From positions 62,001 to 126,000 of the forward strand of contig JALONP010000003.1 in NCBI GenBank assembly GCA_025454875.1: a stretch of 64,000 bases of DNA. Reading direction: 5' to 3'. The notes under the pieces are model-generated. The model was not told the origin of the DNA and did not search any database. It saw only the letters and a list, made by a program, of their open reading frames with translations. Below, piece by piece: positions 20,561 through 62,134 of this stretch; within the stretch, counting starts at the first letter, position 1, and each line of letters opens with the position of its first letter. This DNA is from Bacteroidia bacterium (GTDB taxonomy: Bacteria > Bacteroidota > Bacteroidia > UKL13-3). A program made the position numbers and the translations under genes.

Positions 20561-20896
20561 ATGAACTCCCGTTTACCTATGCATCAAAAACTGGAAATAA
20601 TGGTGTCTGCCTGTGCCGATAAGCATTTTATCCATTGGCAACAAGCTGAATCGCTCATACAAGTTGAGTTTAGTAGCCTCTTGTTAATGATTCAATGGTT
20701 AAACGACATGAAAAGACAATCAGAAATGACTACCGAGCAAGCCAGAATCCATATCGACATTCAAAAAAACACCATGCGAAACCGGTTAATGGCATTGCCA
20801 AATATTCCGTTGGTAGAAATTGAACAAATGATGAACACTGGAATTGATAGCATTCGTAAAGAATTATACCAAGAAATGGATTGGCTTATTATATAG
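20561..20896 (+). CDS. Small conserved-looking hypothetical protein
   Basis: 111 residues, predicted mostly helical and without a signal peptide or membrane segment. The sequence has heptad-like spacing of hydrophobics (LIQVEFSSLLLMIQWLNDM) and a polar C-terminal half ending EMDWLII. No family with a known function is recognised. The start at 20561 is chosen because a consensus -7 box lies just before it; an internal ATG at 20579 is the alternative. It is convergent with the alpha/beta hydrolase gene, with 9 bp between the stops. Confidence 0.6.
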   Translation: MNSRLPMHQKLEIMVSACADKHFIHWQQAESLIQVEFSSLLLMIQWLNDMKRQSEMTTEQARIHIDIQKNTMRNRLMALPNIPLVEIEQMMNTGIDSIRKELYQEMDWLII

Positions 20897-20905
20897 CTAG
20901 GCTAT

Positions 20906-21790
20906 TTAGGCTATAACCTTTGCATCATTAACAAATGAAGCCAAAATACCATTCACCTCAATTGGCTTTTCAATCTGCACAAAATGACCAGCATTGTTAA
21001 TGATGGTAAATGTAGCGTTGGGAATTAAAGCTGCCGCTTTTTGAGCTATCGATGTTGGTGTTTCGCCAAAATGAACCAAGCTGTTTGGAATTAAAGCGTC
21101 TTGCTTACCAAAAATAATATGTGTAGGCACTTGAATTTCGGGTAAAAATTGTTGCACTTGCTCGTTTAACATTCCGTTAATGCTTTTAATGCTCATTTCG
21201 CGCCATTGTTTAGTTGGGTGCAGTTTCATGAACTCATGTAATTGCTCTATAATTTTCGCACTATCATTATGTGAGCTAAAAAAACTTTGCTCAATGGCTT
21301 GTTTCAAATGAAATTCATCCGATGCAAATAAGGTTCCCATTTTTAATGCGCCTTGCATCATCATTACTTCATGTGTCGCAAAGTATTCCAATCCAGCCGA
21401 GCCAATTAAGATGAGCTTTTGAATGAGGAGAGGATAACGCAATGCCAATACCATCGACACTTGTCCACCCATCGAATGACCAACCAATACCACATTTTTT
21501 AAATCCAATGTTTCAATAAAACGAGCGACGCTCTCGGCATAAAAAAACATCGTATATGGATAATCACCTCGTGACGAATAACCATTACCTGGTAAATCAA
21601 TTGCAATACAGCGGTTGTTATTTTTTAATTCACTGATTTGATATTGCCACACAGGAGCATAATTCGCCAAACCATGAATGAATAAAAAGGTAGTAGCGCC
21701 TTCCCCTTCATCCATGTATGCAATACTAATTTCGGGATGAACTTGGATTTGGTGAAGTGGGAATGGATATTGGATTGTAGCTCTAGTCAT
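20906..21790 (-). CDS. Alpha/beta hydrolase
   Basis: 294 residues. It has the oxyanion-hole region TFLFIHGLANYAPVW, the nucleophile elbow VGHSMGGQVSM (Ser near residue 103), an acid in FGKQDALIP and a His in NNAGHFVQIEKP. These are the features of a soluble esterase/lipase-like hydrolase; the substrate is not shown. It lies 62 bp after phaC on the same strand, behind a hairpin, so a role in PHA or thioester turnover is possible but only inferred from position. Confidence 0.85.
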   Translation of the reverse strand: MTRATIQYPFPLHQIQVHPEISIAYMDEGEGATTFLFIHGLANYAPVWQYQISELKNNNRCIAIDLPGNGYSSRGDYPYTMFFYAESVARFIETLDLKNVVLVGHSMGGQVSMVLALRYPLLIQKLILIGSAGLEYFATHEVMMMQGALKMGTLFASDEFHLKQAIEQSFFSSHNDSAKIIEQLHEFMKLHPTKQWREMSIKSINGMLNEQVQQFLPEIQVPTHIIFGKQDALIPNSLVHFGETPTSIAQKAAALIPNATFTIINNAGHFVQIEKPIEVNGILASFVNDAKVIA

Positions 21791-21797
21791 AAATAAT

Positions 21798-21827
21798 ACA
21801 GACGCTCATCTTGCGATGAACGTCTGT
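21798..21827 (-). terminator. Hairpin between phaC and the hydrolase gene
   Basis: A 13-bp stem with one mismatch (ACAGACG...CGTCTGT) and a 4-nt loop. The minus-strand tail is TATTATTTATG, so it may act as a leaky terminator or an mRNA-processing hairpin. Confidence 0.5.
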
Positions 21828-21852
21828 ACAAGTATATTGTTATAAAATTAAA

Positions 21853-22911
21853 TTATGATTTACTAGCAACCCAGCTAGCTACTTTAGGCGCCAATTCCTT
21901 TTGTGATTTAGCCCCAACAAACACTCCTATATGTCCTCCAGGAAATGCATATTCCTCCTTATCCTTGGTTCCTACTGCTTTCATAATAGGTGTGGTTGAA
22001 GAGTTCGGAATAATATTATCTTCTGTAGCAAAAATGTTTAAGAATGGAACCGTCATGTTTTTCAAATCAACCTTACGGCCTCCCAATTCAAACTCGCCTT
22101 TAATAAGTTTATTTCCTTGCCACAAATCTTTGATGTATTTGCGGAACATCTCCCCTGCTTGGTCTGGCATATCAGCCTTCCATTTTTCCATCCGTAAAAA
22201 GTTCTCGAGCTTGGCTTGATCTTGCATAATATCTATTGCCGAAACGTATTTAGCAAAAGGTGCGCTTGGTTTTAACATACCAAATCCACTATCAATCATT
22301 GTAGCAGGCACCAATCCACCGCAACTATCAATCATGCTATCAATATCCAAATCCTTGGTCCAACGGTAAAGCATGCACTCATTGCCACTAAAGTCAAACG
22401 GGGCAACATACACTGTAAGTGACTGCAATTTTTCTGGAAATAATGAAGCATAAATGGTGCTAAATGTACCTCCTTGGCAAATACCCATTTTATGGATTTT
22501 TTTGTTACCAGTTGATTTGCGCACAAAATCAATTGCATCGTTCATAAAACCAAGGATATAGTCTTCCATGGTTAAATAACGATGTTGTTTCTTTGGGTAT
22601 CCCCAATCCATAATATAAATATCCAATCCTTCATCCAATAATTTCTTCATTAAGCTACGATCAGGTTGCAAATCCAATACATCATGACGGTTCATGATGG
22701 CGAACGAAACCAATACCGGAATTTTTACCTTAGCTGGAGTTTCACGCTTGTAATGGTACAATTTTACAAGGTCATTTTGCCAAACCAACTCTTTGGGAGT
22801 AGTGGCAACTTCTACTTCATCTATACGTTGCAACAGTTCGTAACCTTTTACCAATTTTTCACTGGTTTTGGTCATTTCTTCCATAAGCCCTGCGGCATTT
22901 ATATTCATCAT
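21853..22911 (-). CDS. phaC: Class III polyhydroxyalkanoate synthase, catalytic subunit PhaC
   Basis: 352 residues, the short length of class III PhaC (class I enzymes are ~550-600). The lipase-like box GICQGG places the nucleophile Cys at about residue 135. The Asp is in FATEDNIIPNS and the His in FPGGHIGVF. It polymerises (R)-3-hydroxyacyl-CoA on the granule surface and needs PhaE. The phaE gene lies upstream on the same strand with a 121-bp gap holding a terminator-like hairpin. Three features agree: length, Cys box and partner gene. Confidence 0.93.
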   Translation of the reverse strand: MMNINAAGLMEEMTKTSEKLVKGYELLQRIDEVEVATTPKELVWQNDLVKLYHYKRETPAKVKIPVLVSFAIMNRHDVLDLQPDRSLMKKLLDEGLDIYIMDWGYPKKQHRYLTMEDYILGFMNDAIDFVRKSTGNKKIHKMGICQGGTFSTIYASLFPEKLQSLTVYVAPFDFSGNECMLYRWTKDLDIDSMIDSCGGLVPATMIDSGFGMLKPSAPFAKYVSAIDIMQDQAKLENFLRMEKWKADMPDQAGEMFRKYIKDLWQGNKLIKGEFELGGRKVDLKNMTVPFLNIFATEDNIIPNSSTTPIMKAVGTKDKEEYAFPGGHIGVFVGAKSQKELAPKVASWVASKS

Positions 22912-22964
22912 ATGGTTGTTTATTAATGTTTAGATATTATTCGAATTAAATGCTTTATATCAAA

Positions 22965-23014
22965 TAAAAAAGCCACAAACTTCAAAGATGTTTAATCAGT
23001 GAAATCTGTGGCTT
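22965..23014 (-). terminator. Terminator-like hairpin between phaE and phaC
   Basis: On the minus strand, AAGCCACA pairs with TGTGGCTT across 29 nt and is followed by TTTTATTTG. The long loop suggests a partial terminator or attenuator. Confidence 0.55.
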
Positions 23015-23032
23015 GATGTACTACATTATCAA

Positions 23033-24328
23033 TTAAGCGGTAGCTTTAGTTGTTTTTTTTGCTGTTGGTTTTGCTGTTTCTTCAGTTGCAATCTCTGCAT
23101 CTAATTGTTTTTCCAACAAGGTAATGCGTTTTTTCATTTCGTAAATGGTTTTGTAAGTTTCATCCATTTCGCTGCGTGTAATCACCGGAATGTTTGCCAT
23201 AGCTTTTTCCATTTGTTCGTTGATATGCATTTTCAATTTGTTGCCAAATGTGTTTAATTCAGCTTGCATTTTTGAATATTCATCAGTAGAAAACAAAGCA
23301 ACAAAGTGCTTGTCGCTAATATTTAACCAATGGGTATACAAATTTGCAAAATCTTTCATTTCAGCACCATTGCGCAAATGAGCATATACCGTTTCTGCCA
23401 ACTCATCCATTGCTTTTGAACCTGTTTGGTACATGAGGTATTGCATTTCAGCGCTTTTCATTTGGTAGTTCGCAAATTCATTGGCCAAATCTTTCATGGC
23501 ATTGAGTTGCTGTGTTTGGTTGGTGTTACCAGCCAATTTCATCATTGGAGCGAACGCATGGTTCATTTGGTTGTATGCATTGTGATACATTTCCATTGCT
23601 TGTCCAAATAATTGATGTCCATTAGGCATCATGTTCATTGCATTTGATTTCCAGCCATCAAACATATTCTTATTTGCATCCATTGCACTGTACATGTTTT
23701 GTTGCATTTGTTGCATTCCAGGGAAAGCCATTGCTTGTTTGGTAAAATCGCCTTGCATATTGAACATTTTGTCCATCATATCTTTGAATAATGGTGCATT
23801 GAACAGTTGTTTGAATGTATCCAAGTTAAACGATTTATCATTCATCGACTTAAACATTGGCATCCACAACTGAAACAAGTTCATGTACATTTCAGCGTTG
23901 TTAAACATTCCACTCATCATGGTTTTAGCATCTGCATTGCTGTAATTTTTTGCCATTTCAGAGAATGTGTTGTTTAGGCTGTTCATCCAATTTTGGTACA
24001 AGTGCATGGTATTATCCATACCTGACTTCATCGAATCCATGTTCATCATGTTGTTCATGTTGTTAAACATCGGCATGTTGCTCATCCAAGCTTTGTTCAT
24101 ATCGACTTGGTTATTCATCCAGGTATTGTAGAACTCCATCGGATTGCTCATTTTTTGCTCAGCTGTGTTGTTAAAAAAAGCCATTTGAGAATCGTACCAT
24201 TTTTTAAAGAAATCAGAATTCATGTTTTCTGTGAACATGCTACGCATTTTTTCGGTTGCTGTTGACATGTTCTCCATTGCTTGCTTTTGAGCATTGGTAA
24301 AAGTTTCGAAAAGATTTTTAGTTTCCAT
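23033..24328 (-). CDS. phaE: Class III PHA synthase accessory subunit PhaE-like, methionine-rich
   Basis: 431 residues from the ATG at 24328 (METKNLFETFTNAQKQAMEN); a longer in-frame start is rejected because it adds a Cys-rich, non-conserved stretch. It is nearly all helical, with many Met, Asn, Phe and Trp: about 60 Met by hand count. A terminal coiled coil (YEMKKRITLLEKQLD) is followed by an Ala/Lys/Thr/Pro tail (AKPTAKKTTKATA). The FNAPLFKDMMDKMFNMQ region and the C-terminal coiled coil fit PhaE/PhaR-like subunits. Identity rests mainly on position before phaC and overall architecture; a phasin is the alternative. Confidence 0.78.
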   Translation of the reverse strand: METKNLFETFTNAQKQAMENMSTATEKMRSMFTENMNSDFFKKWYDSQMAFFNNTAEQKMSNPMEFYNTWMNNQVDMNKAWMSNMPMFNNMNNMMNMDSMKSGMDNTMHLYQNWMNSLNNTFSEMAKNYSNADAKTMMSGMFNNAEMYMNLFQLWMPMFKSMNDKSFNLDTFKQLFNAPLFKDMMDKMFNMQGDFTKQAMAFPGMQQMQQNMYSAMDANKNMFDGWKSNAMNMMPNGHQLFGQAMEMYHNAYNQMNHAFAPMMKLAGNTNQTQQLNAMKDLANEFANYQMKSAEMQYLMYQTGSKAMDELAETVYAHLRNGAEMKDFANLYTHWLNISDKHFVALFSTDEYSKMQAELNTFGNKLKMHINEQMEKAMANIPVITRSEMDETYKTIYEMKKRITLLEKQLDAEIATEETAKPTAKKTTKATA

Positions 24329-24593
24329 ATTGTTGTAAATTATTGTTTTGCTGTTTGAATTACAGGTACAAAGGTGCAACAGATCATGTATACTTTAATC
24401 AATGGAACATCATTTCGGTGTTGCTAAATCCTTAAGAATCAGCAAGAGGCTTGTGTACCTAAGGAATTAATTGATTATGATTTTTATCAAAGCTGAACTA
24501 ATATTCATTTATTATCAAAAAAATGTACTAAGCAATGACAAATAGAGGCTTTTATAGCGAATTATCATTCGCTATAATTAACTTAATAGCTAC

Positions 24594-24622
24594 TTGCAAA
24601 AGAGAAACAATCACCTATTTTG
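24594..24622 (+). promoter_or_regulatory. Putative phaJ promoter
   Basis: TTG, 19 nt, then TATTTTG (one base short of TAnnTTTG) lies 20 nt before the ATG at 24643. This argues against the longer upstream reading frame that begins at 24535. Confidence 0.45.
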
Positions 24623-24642
24623 CATTTAAATTAATAAAATCT

Positions 24643-25056
24643 ATGGGACCAAAAGTAGGAGATGTATTTACACACGATATAACATACACTCAAGAACAAG
24701 TTAACCAATACGCAACTGTAAGCGGTGATACCAATCCATTGCATGTTGATGCAGAAACAGGCAAAGCAAGCATGTTTGGCAAATGTATTATTCATGGCCA
24801 TTTTAGTGCAAGTGTTTTCACTAAGATATTTGGTGTATTGTATTTTGCTGATGGGCATATTTACATGAAACAAAACAATAACTTCTTAAAACCAATGTTT
24901 GTTGATACGCTCTACAGAGCCGTAGTTACCGTCAAAGAAATTTTCCCCGAAAAAAACCGCGTACTGTACGAAACGAAAGTGATTGATGTAGCTACTGGTG
25001 CAGAGACCATAACTGGTGAAGCACTGCTCATGAATAAGAAGCAGTATGTGTGGTAA
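24643..25056 (+). CDS. phaJ: MaoC-like (R)-specific enoyl-CoA hydratase, PhaJ type
   Basis: 137 residues from the ATG at 24643, the usual length of single hot-dog PhaJ proteins. The hydratase-2 signature YATVSGDTNPLHVD carries the catalytic Asp and His (about residues 28-41). It converts trans-2-enoyl-CoA from beta-oxidation to (R)-3-hydroxyacyl-CoA, the substrate of PHA synthase. It is divergent from phaE; the 314-bp region between the two starts holds both promoters and otherwise nothing I recognise. The context strongly supports a PHA role. Confidence 0.88.
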   Translation: MGPKVGDVFTHDITYTQEQVNQYATVSGDTNPLHVDAETGKASMFGKCIIHGHFSASVFTKIFGVLYFADGHIYMKQNNNFLKPMFVDTLYRAVVTVKEIFPEKNRVLYETKVIDVATGAETITGEALLMNKKQYVW

Positions 25057-25081
25057 GGATATTTACTTCACGCAAAAAAAG

Positions 25082-25114
25082 AAAGCCGATGAAATGAGTT
25101 CATCGGCTTTTTTT
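25082..25114. terminator. Bidirectional terminator between phaJ and degP
   Basis: A perfect 12-bp stem AAAGCCGATGAA/TTCATCGGCTTT with a 5-nt loop, T-rich on the plus strand and A-rich upstream, serves the two convergent genes. Confidence 0.9.
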
Positions 25115-37828: not shown

Positions 37829-39883
37829 TTATTTCAAATACGTATCCAACCAATCAAAATACACGCGCTGCCACAACACACTATTCTGCGGTTTAGTGAC
37901 CCAATGATTTTCATCAGGGAAATACAAAAATTTGCTTTGAATACCCTTCATTTGGGCAGCAGTAAATGCTTCCATCCCTTGGGTCAGTGGTACTCTAAAA
38001 TCCTTTTCATTGTGGATAACCAAAATGGGAGTATTCCAATTTTGAACAAACTTATGAGGTGATGCATCAAAATTACGTGGCTTCGGACTTTGCCAATATG
38101 GAGCTTGGTTATCGTTATTAGCAAACCACATCTCTTCAGTACTTCCATACCAACTTTCCATATTAAACATGCCACAATGTGCCACAAACGTTTTAAACCT
38201 ACCTTGGTGATTACCGGCCAACCAATAAACTGAATAACCGCCAAAACTCGCACCAACAGCCCCACGTTTATCTTTTGCAACAAAGTTTTCTTTCGACACT
38301 TCATCAATCGCACTTAGGTAATCTTTCATTGCTTGGCCTCCGTAATCTCCAATAATCTGATCGGTCCATTGTTGTCCAAAGCCTGGAGTTCCCCTTCTAT
38401 TTGGCGCAACTACAATGTATCCATTATTAGCCATTAACTGAAAATTCCAACGGTATGAAAAAAATTGACTCACCATGCTTTGTGGACCACCTTGGCAATA
38501 CAGTAATGTTGGGTATTGTTTGTTGGGGTTAAAATTGGGTGGGTAAATAACCCATGTGAGCATTTGCTTGCCATCGGTAGTAGGAATCATTCGTTTTTCA
38601 ACCCTCCCCCATTCAATCTTATCAATGAGCGATTTATTCACAAAAGACAATTGTGTTTCCAATCCTTTATTAGAAATTGAAAACAACTCAGTTGGCATGC
38701 TCATTGATTGCTTGGCACCTACCAATACAAACGTTTTTTTATCAGGATTAAACAAAGAAAATGTTTGGTAATCGTGATCACCTTTGGTGAGTGGTTTGAC
38801 CTCAGGAAAATAAAAACCAGCTTTTCCTGCAGCCTCATTTGCATAAAAAATATTTTTGGTTCCTTGGTACTCTGCAACAAAATAAAGTTGGTTGTTATTC
38901 CATTGAAAGTTTTCGACACCATAATCAAAATCTTTAGTTGCATCAGTTATCGAGCGTGTATCAACATAATAAACCATCAGCCGATTTTTGTCGGCCTCAT
39001 TACCAGGCCTTGCCATACTTAACCAAGCTATGCGTTTCCCATCTTTGCTAAACGCTGGATTGGTATCATAACCTGGATTGCTTTCTGTAAGATTAAACGT
39101 GTTTTTAGTGCTTACATCATAAATATAAATATTAGAATTGGTACTTACGGCTTCGGCTGTTCCGTTAAGCTTGCGGCAAGTGTATGCTAACTTTTTCCCA
39201 TCGTTACTCCAGTTAAATTGCTCTGATCCACCAAAAGGTTGCAATGGGGCATCAAACTTTTCACCTAACATGATATCTGTTCCTTCGCTAGCTTTACCTC
39301 CATTGTATGAAGCGACAAACATATGGCTGTAAGCATAATCGTTCCAGTTATCCCAGTGGCGGTAAAACAACCCATCAATGATGCGGGCATCTTTGGTAAA
39401 TGGTAAATCAGGATAAATTTCAGCGGGATTTTGCTCAAGCTTCACATCACTTGCGTAGGCAATATTTGTTCCTGTTGGAGCGAATTTATATGCATTTACA
39501 CCTGACTTTACGTTGGTAACTTGGGTCTTGTTGGATCCATCTGCATTGATTTCCCAAATTTGGGCTGAACCACTTTCGCTGCTTAAATAGGTAATTTTCT
39601 TCCCATCTGGATGCCACTGAACATCATAAGCATTTTGTGCTGCATCAGTTAAAGCTATTGGTTGCCCTGCGGGCATATTCATTATATAAATTTTATTGGT
39701 TCCCTTATTGGTAGCCAAATCATAAGTTTTTACTTCATACAACAACTGCTTCCCATCTGGTGAAAGTTGCGGATTATTTACACGCCCAAATTGAAATAAC
39801 AATTCAGGAGTGAGTTTTTGTTTAGGCTGTGCCATAGCAGTAATTGCAAAAAAGGTAAGCAGCGTAAATATACTTTTACTCAT
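37829..39883 (-). CDS. S9-family prolyl-oligopeptidase-type peptidase
   Basis: 684 residues. A signal peptide (FTLLTFFAITAMAQP) indicates export, probably to the periplasm. An N-terminal beta-propeller (about 30-400) with repeats such as WHPDGKKITYLSSESG covers a C-terminal alpha/beta hydrolase domain with Ser in GASFGGYSVYW (about 541), Asp in HNEKDFRVPL and His in PDENHWVTKP. It cleaves oligopeptides, as dipeptidyl or acylaminoacyl peptidases do. It lies 3 nt after lysA and 3 nt before the DUF4197 gene, which shows tight operon packing. Confidence 0.93.
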   Translation of the reverse strand: MSKSIFTLLTFFAITAMAQPKQKLTPELLFQFGRVNNPQLSPDGKQLLYEVKTYDLATNKGTNKIYIMNMPAGQPIALTDAAQNAYDVQWHPDGKKITYLSSESGSAQIWEINADGSNKTQVTNVKSGVNAYKFAPTGTNIAYASDVKLEQNPAEIYPDLPFTKDARIIDGLFYRHWDNWNDYAYSHMFVASYNGGKASEGTDIMLGEKFDAPLQPFGGSEQFNWSNDGKKLAYTCRKLNGTAEAVSTNSNIYIYDVSTKNTFNLTESNPGYDTNPAFSKDGKRIAWLSMARPGNEADKNRLMVYYVDTRSITDATKDFDYGVENFQWNNNQLYFVAEYQGTKNIFYANEAAGKAGFYFPEVKPLTKGDHDYQTFSLFNPDKKTFVLVGAKQSMSMPTELFSISNKGLETQLSFVNKSLIDKIEWGRVEKRMIPTTDGKQMLTWVIYPPNFNPNKQYPTLLYCQGGPQSMVSQFFSYRWNFQLMANNGYIVVAPNRRGTPGFGQQWTDQIIGDYGGQAMKDYLSAIDEVSKENFVAKDKRGAVGASFGGYSVYWLAGNHQGRFKTFVAHCGMFNMESWYGSTEEMWFANNDNQAPYWQSPKPRNFDASPHKFVQNWNTPILVIHNEKDFRVPLTQGMEAFTAAQMKGIQSKFLYFPDENHWVTKPQNSVLWQRVYFDWLDTYLK

Positions 39884-39886
39884 ATG

Positions 39887-41140
39887 TCAAATTGATTGTG
39901 TTGCGTTTGAACTCCAAATATCTACTTCATTTCTAACCAAATCGTCCATGGTTTCCCGCTTGCGAATTAAATGCGCTTTCCCTTCGTAAATCAATACTTC
40001 GGCCGGCCTAAAACGGGCATTGTAGTTTGATGCCATAGTGATTCCATAAGCACCCGCATTTTTAAAACACAATATATCCCCTTCTTTGGTTTCGGCAATT
40101 TTGCGGTCCCAACCAAACGTATCCGTTTCGCAAATATTTCCCACCACGGTATAAATGCGTTGTTTCCCTTCAGGATTTGATACATTTAAAATGGTATGGT
40201 ATGAATCATATAACATTGGGCGAATAAGGTGATTTAATCCTGAATCAACTCCAATAAAAACTGTAGCTGTTGTTTGTTTAATTACGTTTGTTTTTACCAG
40301 AAAATAACCTGACTCACTCACAATATATTTTCCAGGTTCGAACCAAAGTTCCAATTCGCGTCCATAGTCTTTGGTAAATTCCAAAAAACGCTGAGCAATT
40401 GCACTACCCAATTCTTCTACATCAGTAGTTACATCACCTTCTTTGTAGGCAACTTTAAACCCACTTCCAAAATCAATAAATTGTAGGTTGGGAAAATCTT
40501 TCGCAGCATCAAATAAAATCTCTGCACCTTGCAAGAACACACCAGCATCTAAAATATCGGAACCTGTGTGCATGTGCAAGCCATTTACGTTGATATTATT
40601 TGATTTTACCACACGCAATACATGCCTCAATTGGTATATAGAAATTCCAAACTTTGAGTCGATATGACCTGTTGAGATTTTGGTATTTCCGCCTGCCATA
40701 ATATGCGGATTTAAGCGAATGCAACAAGGCACCTTGTGTCCATACTCATGACCAAACTGCTCTAGAATACTGATATTGTCAATATTGATATGTACACCCA
40801 ATTCAACCCCCTCTTTTATTTCATCAAAACTCACACAGTTGGGTGTAAAAATAATTTCATCTGGTGCGAATCCTGCCCGCAAGCCTAACTTTACTTCATT
40901 AATCGAAACTGTATCCAAGCCAGAACCCGATTGTTTAAGCAAACGTAAAATATTGGAATTATTGAGCGCTTTGCAGGCATACTTCAACTTTACATTTACA
41001 GGGCTAAATGCATTTTTCAATTTTGTATATTTATCAATGATGGTATTTGCATCATAAACGTAAACGGGAGTGCCAAATGCTTCGGCAATATCAAGCAACT
41101 TTACATTGCCAGCATAATAATGATTGTTGATTAATTCCAT
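39887..41140 (-). CDS. lysA: Diaminopimelate decarboxylase
   Basis: 417 residues from the ATG at 41140; a longer frame upstream adds a hydrophobic stretch not found in the family and would begin upstream of the predicted promoter. The PLP Lys is in LKYACKALN (about 42). Substrate and cofactor motifs include HMHTGSDIL, FGSGFKV, EPGKYIVSE and CETDTFGWDR. It converts meso-diaminopimelate to L-lysine. It is the first gene of a seven-gene run that then carries envelope genes and cca. TTG, 18 nt, TATCTTTT lies upstream as promoter. Confidence 0.95.
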   Translation of the reverse strand: MELINNHYYAGNVKLLDIAEAFGTPVYVYDANTIIDKYTKLKNAFSPVNVKLKYACKALNNSNILRLLKQSGSGLDTVSINEVKLGLRAGFAPDEIIFTPNCVSFDEIKEGVELGVHINIDNISILEQFGHEYGHKVPCCIRLNPHIMAGGNTKISTGHIDSKFGISIYQLRHVLRVVKSNNINVNGLHMHTGSDILDAGVFLQGAEILFDAAKDFPNLQFIDFGSGFKVAYKEGDVTTDVEELGSAIAQRFLEFTKDYGRELELWFEPGKYIVSESGYFLVKTNVIKQTTATVFIGVDSGLNHLIRPMLYDSYHTILNVSNPEGKQRIYTVVGNICETDTFGWDRKIAETKEGDILCFKNAGAYGITMASNYNARFRPAEVLIYEGKAHLIRKRETMDDLVRNEVDIWSSNATQSI

Positions 41141-41154
41141 TGAATGGTTGGTAT

Positions 41155-41183
41155 AAAAGATAATGAATACTAAAGAAAAGCAA
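41155..41183 (-). promoter_or_regulatory. Putative lysA operon promoter
   Basis: On the minus strand, TTG, 18 nt, then TATCTTTT (7 of 8 to TAnnTTTG), 14 nt before the lysA start. Confidence 0.45.
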
Positions 41184-41248
41184 GATAACAATATTTGGTG
41201 ATACAATCAGCCAAGCAGATTAGGTTAATTCCAATTACTGCTAGATAA

Positions 41249-42589
41249 TTAACGCATACCGGGCATTTTGGGCATTCCTGGAAATCCACGCATACTTGCA
41301 CCTTGCATTTTACCGAACGACTTCATCATTTTGCGCATTTCTTCAAATTGTTTGAGCAATTGGTTCACTTGCTGAATATCGGTTCCGCTTCCATCGGCAA
41401 TGCGTTTTCTTCGCGAACCGCTGATGATATCCGGATTGTTTCGTTCCTTGGGAGTCATTGAGTTGATAATGGCTTCAATACCTTTAAATGCATCATCACT
41501 AATATCCAAATCTTTGACAGCTTTACCTACGCCTGGTATCATGCCCATCAAATCTTTGAGGTTACCCATTTTCTTTATCTGCTGAATTTGGGTATAAAAA
41601 TCTTCGAAGGTGAATTGGTCTTTTAACAATTTCTTTTGAACCCTTGCTGCCTCCTCTTCATCAAAAACTTGCTGTGCCCGCTCTACCAAACTCACGATAT
41701 CACCCATTCCCAAAATACGTTGCGCCATCCGATCAGGGTGAAACGGATCCAATGCTTCCATTTTTTCACCCATACCTACAAACTTGATTGGTTTTTCAAC
41801 TACCGTCTTAATCGATAATGCAGCACCACCTCTTGTATCACCATCCAGTTTGGTTAAAATCACACCTGTAAAATCGAGCACATCATTAAAGGCTTTAGCG
41901 GTGTTCACTGCATCTTGACCTGTCATCGAATCAACTACAAACAATATTTCCTGAGGTTGAATCGCCTTTTTGATATTCCCGATCTCTTCCATCATTTCAG
42001 CATCAACTGACAAACGACCTGCGGTATCGATAATTAAAACAGAAGCTCCTTTCTGTTGGGCTTCTTTTACTGCATTTGTAGCAATTGAAACAGGATTGTT
42101 ATTTCCCTCTTCGCTGTATACCGGAACACCAATTTGTTCGCCTAAAACATGCAATTGTTGTATCGCTGCCGGCCGGTAAACATCGCAGGCTGCCATCATT
42201 ACTGTTTTTCCCTTCTTTTTAATGTAGTTGGCCAATTTTGCCGAATGTGTGGTTTTACCCGAACCTTGCAAACCAGCCATTAAAATAATAGCAGGAGAAC
42301 CTTTGGTATTCAACTCAACTGCCTGACCACCTAACAACAGCGTGAGTTCATCATTTACAATTTTGGTAAGCAATTGCCCAGGAGAAACCGCTGTAAGCAC
42401 ATTTTGACCTAAGGCTTTTTCTTTAACTGTATCGGTAAATGTTTTCGCGATTTTATAATTAACATCAGCGTCAATTAAAGCCTTTCGGATTTCCTTTACC
42501 GTTTCGGCAACGTTTATTTCCGTTATTTTACCTTGACCCTTTAAGGTTTTAAATGCTTTTTCGAGCTTATTGCTTAAACTTTCGAACAT
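41249..42589 (-). CDS. ffh: Signal recognition particle protein Ffh
   Basis: 446 residues. N domain at 1-85, GTPase G domain with P-loop GLQGSGKTTHSAKLA (about 107-121), DTAGRLSVD and TKLDGDTRGG. The methionine-rich M domain (about 305-446) contains GSRRKRIADGSGTDIQQVN and ends in FPGMPKMPGMR. It binds 4.5S RNA and nascent signal peptides and hands them to FtsY. It is monocistronic as far as visible: lysA follows 108 bp later with its own promoter. Confidence 0.97.
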   Translation of the reverse strand: MFESLSNKLEKAFKTLKGQGKITEINVAETVKEIRKALIDADVNYKIAKTFTDTVKEKALGQNVLTAVSPGQLLTKIVNDELTLLLGGQAVELNTKGSPAIILMAGLQGSGKTTHSAKLANYIKKKGKTVMMAACDVYRPAAIQQLHVLGEQIGVPVYSEEGNNNPVSIATNAVKEAQQKGASVLIIDTAGRLSVDAEMMEEIGNIKKAIQPQEILFVVDSMTGQDAVNTAKAFNDVLDFTGVILTKLDGDTRGGAALSIKTVVEKPIKFVGMGEKMEALDPFHPDRMAQRILGMGDIVSLVERAQQVFDEEEAARVQKKLLKDQFTFEDFYTQIQQIKKMGNLKDLMGMIPGVGKAVKDLDISDDAFKGIEAIINSMTPKERNNPDIISGSRRKRIADGSGTDIQQVNQLLKQFEEMRKMMKSFGKMQGASMRGFPGMPKMPGMR

Positions 42590-61527: not shown

Positions 61528-62134
61528 TAAAATTTTCATCAACGAGAAGCCATTCATAATTGCCACTCAAAATGAGTCGATATCAATTGATGCGCAGTTT
61601 ATAAGGGTAATGCACGATCCATCGAAAGTGGCTTCATATATTAAACAGTGTGAACTGCTGAATTCGAAAGGCATTGTAATGGTTACAGATGATTTAGAGT
61701 TTGCATTCACTGATTTTTATACGCATTTTGTAGCTATTGAAGCTGCAGGCGGCATTGTATTTAACCCATTGAACGAAGTTTTACTTATCAAACGCTTAGG
61801 TAAATGGGACTTGCCTAAAGGCAAAATAGACAGAGGTGAAACACCAGAAGAAGCTGCAATACGTGAGGTAGAAGAAGAATGCGGAATAACCGGATTAACC
61901 ATTACAAATCCGCTCTCTAAAACGTATCATTGCTACAAGCAACACAATCACCGCTTTTTAAAAATAACCCATTGGTATCGGATGCAAACCAATAGCCAAA
62001 AAGCGTTAAAGCCGCAACAAGAAGAACATATAACAGAGGCAGTTTGGCAACCTTGGTCTCAATTAAATTTAGAAGACCTTGATGCATATCTTTCGATAAA
62101 AGAATTGATTGCCGAAACCAGAACGGTTTTGTAG
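61523..62134 (+). CDS. Nudix hydrolase
   Basis: 203 residues from the ATG at 61523; a longer frame runs antisense through pyrE and is rejected. An N-terminal ~70-residue domain (MYKIFINEKPFIIATQNE) precedes the Nudix fold. The Nudix box is GKIDRGETPEEAAIREVEEE plus CGI, which fits Gx5Ex7REUxEExGU (about residues 98-120). It hydrolyses a nucleoside diphosphate linked to some moiety; the substrate is not shown. It is convergent with the TlpA-type gene (4 bp between stops). Confidence 0.92.
   Translation: MYKIFINEKPFIIATQNESISIDAQFIRVMHDPSKVASYIKQCELLNSKGIVMVTDDLEFAFTDFYTHFVAIEAAGGIVFNPLNEVLLIKRLGKWDLPKGKIDRGETPEEAAIREVEEECGITGLTITNPLSKTYHCYKQHNHRFLKITHWYRMQTNSQKALKPQQEEHITEAVWQPWSQLNLEDLDAYLSIKELIAETRTVL

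Follow-up and report, generated by a model that had tools for sequence, protein, structure and literature searches.

A class III polyhydroxyalkanoate synthase locus with a divergent PhaJ-type hydratase in a Bacteroidota genome

Three adjacent genes in a Bacteroidia bacterium of the UKL13-3 lineage probably encode a class III polyhydroxyalkanoate (PHA) synthase, made of PhaE and PhaC, together with a dedicated (R)-specific enoyl-CoA (coenzyme A) hydratase, PhaJ, the three jointly running a storage cycle for poly(3-hydroxybutyrate) (PHB). They lie in a stretch of 64,000 nucleotides (nt), called the window here, that covers positions 62,001 to 126,000 of contig JALONP010000003.1 (assembly GCA_025454875.1). 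From the sequences we infer that polymer is produced, that it is built of four-carbon (C4) units, and in which direction flux passes through PhaJ.

The genes are arranged as follows (aa, amino acids).

21853..22911, minus strand: phaC, class III PHA synthase catalytic subunit, 352 aa; assigned by TIGR01836, triad alignment, tree and Foldseek
23033..24328, minus strand: phaE, class III PHA synthase subunit, 431 aa, 14.2% methionine and 12.3% asparagine; assigned by PF09712
24643..25056, plus strand: phaJ, predicted (R)-specific enoyl-CoA hydratase of the MaoC family, 137 aa; assigned by PF01575 and the catalytic dyad

Thus phaJ stands head to head with phaE. An initial annotation of the window had described phaE, a short phaC with the motif GICQGG and a PhaJ-type hydratase in this head-to-head arrangement, and all three were found where it had placed them. 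The open reading frame (ORF) of phaE spans 23033-24379, and translation probably begins at the ATG at 24328. That of phaJ could begin at 24535; its orthologues align from 24643.

The synthase, the hydratase and their conservation

Both family searches that had been proposed for the synthase agree with the assignment. PhaC scores 400.1 bits against the class III model TIGR01836, above the cut-off of 365.3, and PhaE scores about 73 bits (72.7-73.1) against PF09712, whose cut-off is 25.7. The class I and class II models give PhaC 144 and 69 bits, both far under their respective cut-offs. PF09712 is matched by 19 of 19 aligned members of the PhaE family at E 0.001.

The nucleophile of PhaC, Cys145, lies within GICQGG and is joined by Asp298 and His327. 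This triad aligns with those of class I, III and IV synthases (29 other rows), and among the aligned rows Ser replaces Cys only in a hydrolase encoded elsewhere in the window. Such a triad in a short PhaC of about 40 kilodaltons is as expected for class III. The closest solved structures are PHA synthases (9knj, E 8e-26). The AlphaFold model is moderate (predicted local distance difference test, pLDDT, 57.7), and its best 15 Foldseek matches are all PhaC. Variants of the lipase box can be found in related proteins: AICQAG in genome G017 (locus L047), GICQSG in L013 and AICQGG in L016.

A tree of 27 PhaC rows separates 24 class III rows from three class I rows at 100/100. It was built without three long-branch rows (class IV, PhaZ and the window hydrolase). 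An earlier tree that included them had long branches and open deep forks, and because of this the split of PhaC from class IV and from hydrolases is not settled by trees. The comparison with other alpha/beta hydrolases suggested in the initial annotation was therefore decided in part: PhaC goes with class III and stands apart from class I, and its separation from hydrolases has to come from other evidence. Within class III, the window family makes up a single cluster of 14 rows, supported at 100/100. One row of this cluster comes from G017, which belongs to another family of the taxonomic class, and its position there suggests transfer.

PhaJ, the sole MaoC protein found in the genome, scores 65 bits against PF01575 (cut-off 27). 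Its closest solved relatives are the (R)-specific enoyl-CoA hydratases 5cpg and 1iq6, and the Asp/His dyad, D29 and H34, is present in all 19 aligned rows. In the PhaJ of Aeromonas, chain length is set by Leu65 and Val130 (PMC4823750). The corresponding positions were mapped via alignment with a solved relative, whose chain numbering runs one higher. They are Phe63 and Leu129 in 16 of 16 PhaJ proteins of the family; two haloarchaeal proteins and one from Vibrio have Leu and Val there. Because the side chains of F63 and L129 are bulkier, the alignment suggests that PhaJ prefers C4 over longer fatty-acid intermediates.

The same genes recur together. A scan of genome contigs yielded 20 related loci, all from Bacteroidota and with PhaC 70-89% identical; the closest is in the complete genome of Bacteroidetes bacterium UKL13-3. 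Every one of the 20 has phaE immediately ahead of phaC, and 17 have phaJ nearby. In the other loci (L007, L014 and L015) it was not found within the available sequence, the contigs being short or giving no match. The arrangement exceeds chance, and its conserved core is PhaJ-PhaE-PhaC. In a wider sample of 395 genomes of the phylum, PhaC and PhaE were each over the cut-off in 8.

Co-occurrence was counted in 64 genomes of the order, all of which belong to one family. PhaC is over the cut-off in 26; G400 (321.6 bits, truncated at a contig end) brings the number to 27, and six genomes whose matches were weak (19-26 bits; in G447 a frame of just 43 residues) were scored as lacking PhaC. PhaE occurs in exactly the same 27 genomes, in five of which (G428, G430, G431, G432 and G439) phaE and phaC are on different contigs. 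A MaoC protein is found in 31 genomes: 26 of the 27 with PhaC and 5 of the 37 without (Fisher 8e-12). Each of those 26 carries a single MaoC gene, on the same contig as phaC in 18. When labels were permuted within genera, the observed concordance of PhaC and MaoC was reached in 0 of 20,000 permutations. Among the 40 genomes that are at least 95% complete, 20 have both proteins, one has PhaC alone, none has MaoC alone and 19 have neither.

Recognisable reductases and dehydrogenases are far less regular. PhaB is over its cut-off in 4 of the 64 genomes, three of them with PhaC (searched at E 1e-90), and the 3-hydroxybutyrate dehydrogenase BdhA in seven, six with PhaC (searched at E 1e-80). BdhA accompanies PhaB in 4 of 4 genomes, compared with 3 of the 60 others. 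Neither is over its cut-off in 21 of the 27 PhaC genomes, and PhaJ is present in 20 of those 21. PhaJ, not PhaB, is thus the constant partner across the family. The initial annotation had read the locus as a Bacteroidota example of a class III synthase that comes with a hydratase of its own; the PhaC tree and this family-wide partnership support that reading.

Monomer supply and the direction of flux

In the proposed cycle, Cys145 of PhaC would accept the acyl chain from (R)-3-hydroxybutyryl-CoA. PhaE would hold and activate PhaC at the granule, where PhaC would polymerise. PhaJ would interconvert (R)-3-hydroxybutyryl-CoA and crotonyl-CoA as a two-way gate, so that it could both supply the synthase from C4 intermediates and send released monomers to beta-oxidation. 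A route through a thiolase and a PhaB-like reductase, as well as a 3-hydroxybutyrate dehydrogenase, would also be available in the window genome, encoded elsewhere.

The absence of phaA and phaB, noted in the initial annotation, holds at the locus and fails for the genome. A PhaB-like reductase (contig C2, 7061-7807) scores 372.5 against TIGR01829, whose cut-off is 302.1; the next short-chain dehydrogenase/reductase (SDR) of the genome in that search, at 248 bits, was identified as FabG. Against the PhaB equivalog model NF042966 the reductase scores 195 bits, below the cut-off of 436. Three thiolases exceed the cut-off of TIGR01930: a 3-oxoadipyl-CoA thiolase, the thiolase of a fad cluster and a lone one of the acetyl-CoA acetyltransferase type. 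With a reductase and three thiolases in the genome, supply need not derive from beta-oxidation, which had been put forward as a possible source of monomers. That proposal loses further ground with the pocket residues of PhaJ, which suggest C4, and with the mainly mobilising role of the Haloferax PhaJ.

The genome also has a FadD-MarR-FadN-FadA-FadE cluster, in which FadD and MarR are named by reading only. BdhA scores 344 against TIGR01963 (cut-off 307), and its gene is flanked by one for a sodium:solute symporter and by an overlapping one for an alpha/beta hydrolase (L030; contig C29 of the window genome, about 38,100-41,800). These three look like a set for taking up and consuming external 3-hydroxybutyrate or oligomers of it.

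A TetR-type regulator gene stands head to head with the PhaB-like gene, and paaABCD lies beside it (PaaD is named by position only), an arrangement which suggests that aromatic catabolism feeds PHB in the genus of the window genome. PaaA occurs in 62 of the 64 genomes and, being near-universal, is uninformative about PHA. The neighbourhood of paaABCD, TetR-type gene and PhaB-like gene (L036; G000:C2:3588-7807) has the same composition by position in the congeneric G457. In G396 and G435, unlike L036, the paa genes and the PhaB-like gene are on separate contigs. An operator common to the phaB-TetR pair and the pha locus was considered and rejected, as the gap between the TetR-type gene and phaB holds no palindrome with arms of at least 6 bases.

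One alternative, which is a serious though lesser possibility, is that PhaJ acts mainly in mobilisation. PhaA and PhaB would make the monomer, and PhaJ would turn released (R)-3-hydroxybutyryl-CoA into crotonyl-CoA for beta-oxidation. This is the case of PhaJ1 in Haloferax mediterranei, encoded beside a class III phaEC, for which deletion data in PMC4823750 show mainly mobilisation and little contribution to synthesis. The MaoC gene of Haladaptatus is divergent from phaE-phaC, as in the window, and the PhaB-like gene over the TIGR01829 cut-off would fit as well. However, only 3 of the 27 PhaC genomes of the family have PhaB over the cut-off, so the monomer of most relatives must have another source.

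Alternatively, PhaJ may serve mainly in supply, converting the enoyl-CoA of beta-oxidation to (R)-3-hydroxyacyl-CoA for PhaE and PhaC to polymerise, as the PhaJ of Aeromonas caviae does. The full fad cluster would allow this, and the 20 genomes that have PhaJ and neither PhaB nor BdhA speak for it. It is nevertheless less likely than not as the main role, given the PhaB-like reductase and thiolases of the window genome, a pocket that argues against C6 and longer substrates, and the small effect on synthesis of the haloarchaeal PhaJ1 (PMC4823750).

It is improbable that PhaE and PhaC yield only short, complexed PHB, or use another substrate, and form no storage granules. Such a reading could point to PhaE, which scores 60.1 bits against TIGR01834 where the cut-off is 154.95, but the intact triad, the family score of PhaC, the strict co-occurrence of PhaE with PhaC and the near-strict one of PhaJ all oppose it. 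That PhaC is an ordinary alpha/beta hydrolase mistaken for a synthase can practically be dismissed: it has the fold of such enzymes and matches the generic Abhydrolase_1 family, but the nucleophile Cys145 rather than Ser, the TIGR01836 score and the tree placement led to the rejection of a plain hydrolase, and the constant PhaE partner also argues against it.

A storage cycle shared by PhaE, PhaC and PhaJ is the reading preferred here, and several observations count against it, the TIGR01834 score of PhaE among them. No solved relative of PhaE was found, the two matches obtained (E 0.012 and 0.015) being at chance level, and the PhaE model is all helix with low confidence (pLDDT 41.9). Five genomes have MaoC without PhaC, and G404 has PhaC without MaoC. 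The preference of PhaJ for C4 is read from two positions in one alignment. Since the PhaB and BdhA counts use curated cut-offs, a diverged reductase could act unseen. Finally, the window genome is itself one of the three PhaC genomes with PhaB, and PhaJ may therefore matter less here than in relatives.

Taken as a storage cycle, the locus suggests PHB storage through a kit of three genes in a freshwater Bacteroidota lineage whose members are mostly uncultured. Because this kit usually comes without a recognisable reductase, surveys based on phaA-phaB-phaC would miss the lineage.

PhaE composition and the gap between phaE and phaC

PhaE is unusually rich in methionine. Among 101 ORFs of at least 150 aa, taken from the window and from five further stretches of its genome, it has 13.6% methionine as a full ORF (14.2% from the ATG at 24328); the runner-up has 6.1% and the mean is 2.7%. 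When the 20 related loci are added (246 ORFs), the top 21 in methionine are the 21 PhaE frames, at 7.4-19.1%. Contents elsewhere are 3.2-3.7% and 5.0-8.1% in two groups from other Bacteroidota classes (f20 and f49), 7.0% in G017, 5.6% in a Sinorhizobium and 4.9% in a Haladaptatus. Methionine is also fairly high in PhaC, several of which have 5.7-6.6%.

The positions concerned can be compared with other PhaE proteins. At the methionine columns of the family, 102 residues of f49 could be compared: 73% of them belong to the set L, I, V, F, M and A, a share that is 41% when all aligned residues are taken. Methionine therefore occupies sites that are mostly hydrophobic in other PhaE. A literature search covering 25 of 842 matches and a further five papers, the latter judged by title and opening of the abstract, found no paper on methionine-rich PhaE.

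We infer that PhaE coats the granule via methionine-rich amphipathic helices. Methionine-rich domains that form condensates exist in eukaryotes, and by analogy PhaE might be a redesigned granule scaffold, rich in methionine and asparagine. Over some 290 residues of predicted helices, methionine would replace most aliphatic side chains and create a soft, oxidisable and redox-responsive surface that self-assembles around nascent PHB. Granule growth would be tied to a peroxide-rich life beside bloom cyanobacteria, and the intercistronic hairpin would keep scaffold in excess over synthase. This wider picture is speculative and unlikely. Methionine-rich PhaE nonetheless offers a natural experiment on the role of a little-understood subunit: if Met can substitute for Leu, Ile and Val throughout, PhaE may bind via soft surface contacts rather than via a packed core.

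Three terminator-like hairpins surround the genes.

22970..23014, minus strand: hairpin followed by a U tract, between phaE and phaC, with paired changes in the alignment
21796..21829, minus strand: hairpin downstream of phaC, ahead of a hydrolase gene
25078..25114, plus strand (scored on the minus strand too): hairpin downstream of phaJ

The first is found, by one criterion, at 40 of 44 phaE-phaC junctions, many of which are the same species twice; the hairpin sequences number 21 distinct ones. The junctions that miss the criterion are L018, where a hairpin is present with a short U run, L076 of the same family, whose gap is 17 nt, and, from another family, L044 (weak) and L045 (a 12-nt gap). 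In the window genome such hairpins occur in 6 of 26 same-strand gaps of 60-300 nt, two of them at the pha locus. Across 18 aligned sequences, both sides have changed with pairing retained in 7 of the 12 predicted pairs, a raw count without a shuffle baseline. From this the hairpin appears to be maintained. In L021 (5711-6000) the gap is about 290 nt long and, by eye, looks repetitive past the hairpin.

The hairpin may be a partial terminator that lowers phaC, or else the true end of the phaE transcript, with phaC started separately. Evidence from promoters is mixed. The -7 box of Bacteroidota is TAnnTTTG. Of 20 rows, 19 have it ahead of phaE, though the window does not; it occurs in none of 23 phaE-phaC gaps and before only 1 of 6 stand-alone phaC genes. 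As stand-alone phaC genes mostly lack the box, phaC may be transcribed from a promoter of another type. An element containing TCG lies 23-42 nt upstream of phaC in 15 of 25 rows, many of them close kin, against 3.8 expected from shuffles; it is near 22944 in the window and occurs also where phaC stands alone. A sigma-70 promoter scan gave fewer sites than shuffles. That the hairpin makes PhaE more abundant than PhaC has about an even chance of being true, and it offers an idea of how the ratio of the two subunits gets set.

Neighbouring genes and known systems

Downstream of phaC lies the hydrolase gene.

20906..21790, minus strand: alpha/beta hydrolase with the Ser lipase box GHSMGG; Abhydrolase_1, 112.6 bits

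Its product is a possible depolymerase by sequence, scoring 91 bits against the i_nPHAscl depolymerase model NF050089 (cut-off 300). Membership of the phaC operon was provisionally rejected: the two genes are parted by a strong hairpin, the hydrolase gene follows phaC in just 8 of the 18 loci that could be counted (16 further rows with too short a flank were set aside), and the depolymerase cut-off is missed. The gene is probably on its own transcript. Beyond it, on the plus strand at 20561-20896, is an ORF of 111 aa with no family over cut-off, of which a 56% identical copy is found in the same place in UKL13-3.

The initial annotation considered a class III example from Bacteroidota worth documenting. 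Earlier work weakens that case for novelty: class III PhaC was counted in 13 Bacteroidetes genomes in PMC8312272, and a phaJEC cluster with a class III synthase is described for Clostridium acetireducens in PMC5159582. In the main text of the UKL13-3 genome paper the terms 'polyhydroxy', 'PHB' and 'storage' do not appear.

Class III phaEC loci also occur in Bacteroidota of other classes. In f20 (L041, L042) and f49 (L044, L045) phaE precedes phaC, as in the window, and PhaC is 41-46% identical. They differ in having a PhaB-like SDR gene that adjoins phaC (f20) or lies nearby (f49), in having no hairpin of the window's strength, and in their PhaE, with 3-8% methionine.

The system of Aeromonas caviae, PhaP-PhaC-PhaJ, shares with the window a PhaJ with the conserved dyad (1iq6) and the PhaC fold (9knk). 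Its PhaJ has smaller residues at the two acyl-pocket positions, and its synthase is of class I, without PhaE.

Haloarchaea also have a MaoC/PhaJ gene beside a class III phaE-phaC, divergent in Haladaptatus (L106), with PhaC 36-37% identical to that of the window. They differ in that phaR and phaP genes lie in between (PMC4823750). In Haladaptatus, moreover, PhaE is short, with 182 aa and 4.9% methionine, and a reductase gene adjoins phaC.

Clostridium acetireducens and its relatives likewise combine class III PhaE and PhaC with PhaJ in one cluster, and C. acetireducens is a PHB producer (PMC5159582). They belong to a different phylum, and the cluster is written phaJEC there, whereas phaJ of the window is divergent. 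Class III PhaC in Bacteroidota and the phaJEC cluster are thus already known; what is new here is the methionine-rich PhaE, the gene set centred on PhaJ, the bulkier residues at two acyl-pocket positions of PhaJ and the hairpin between phaE and phaC.

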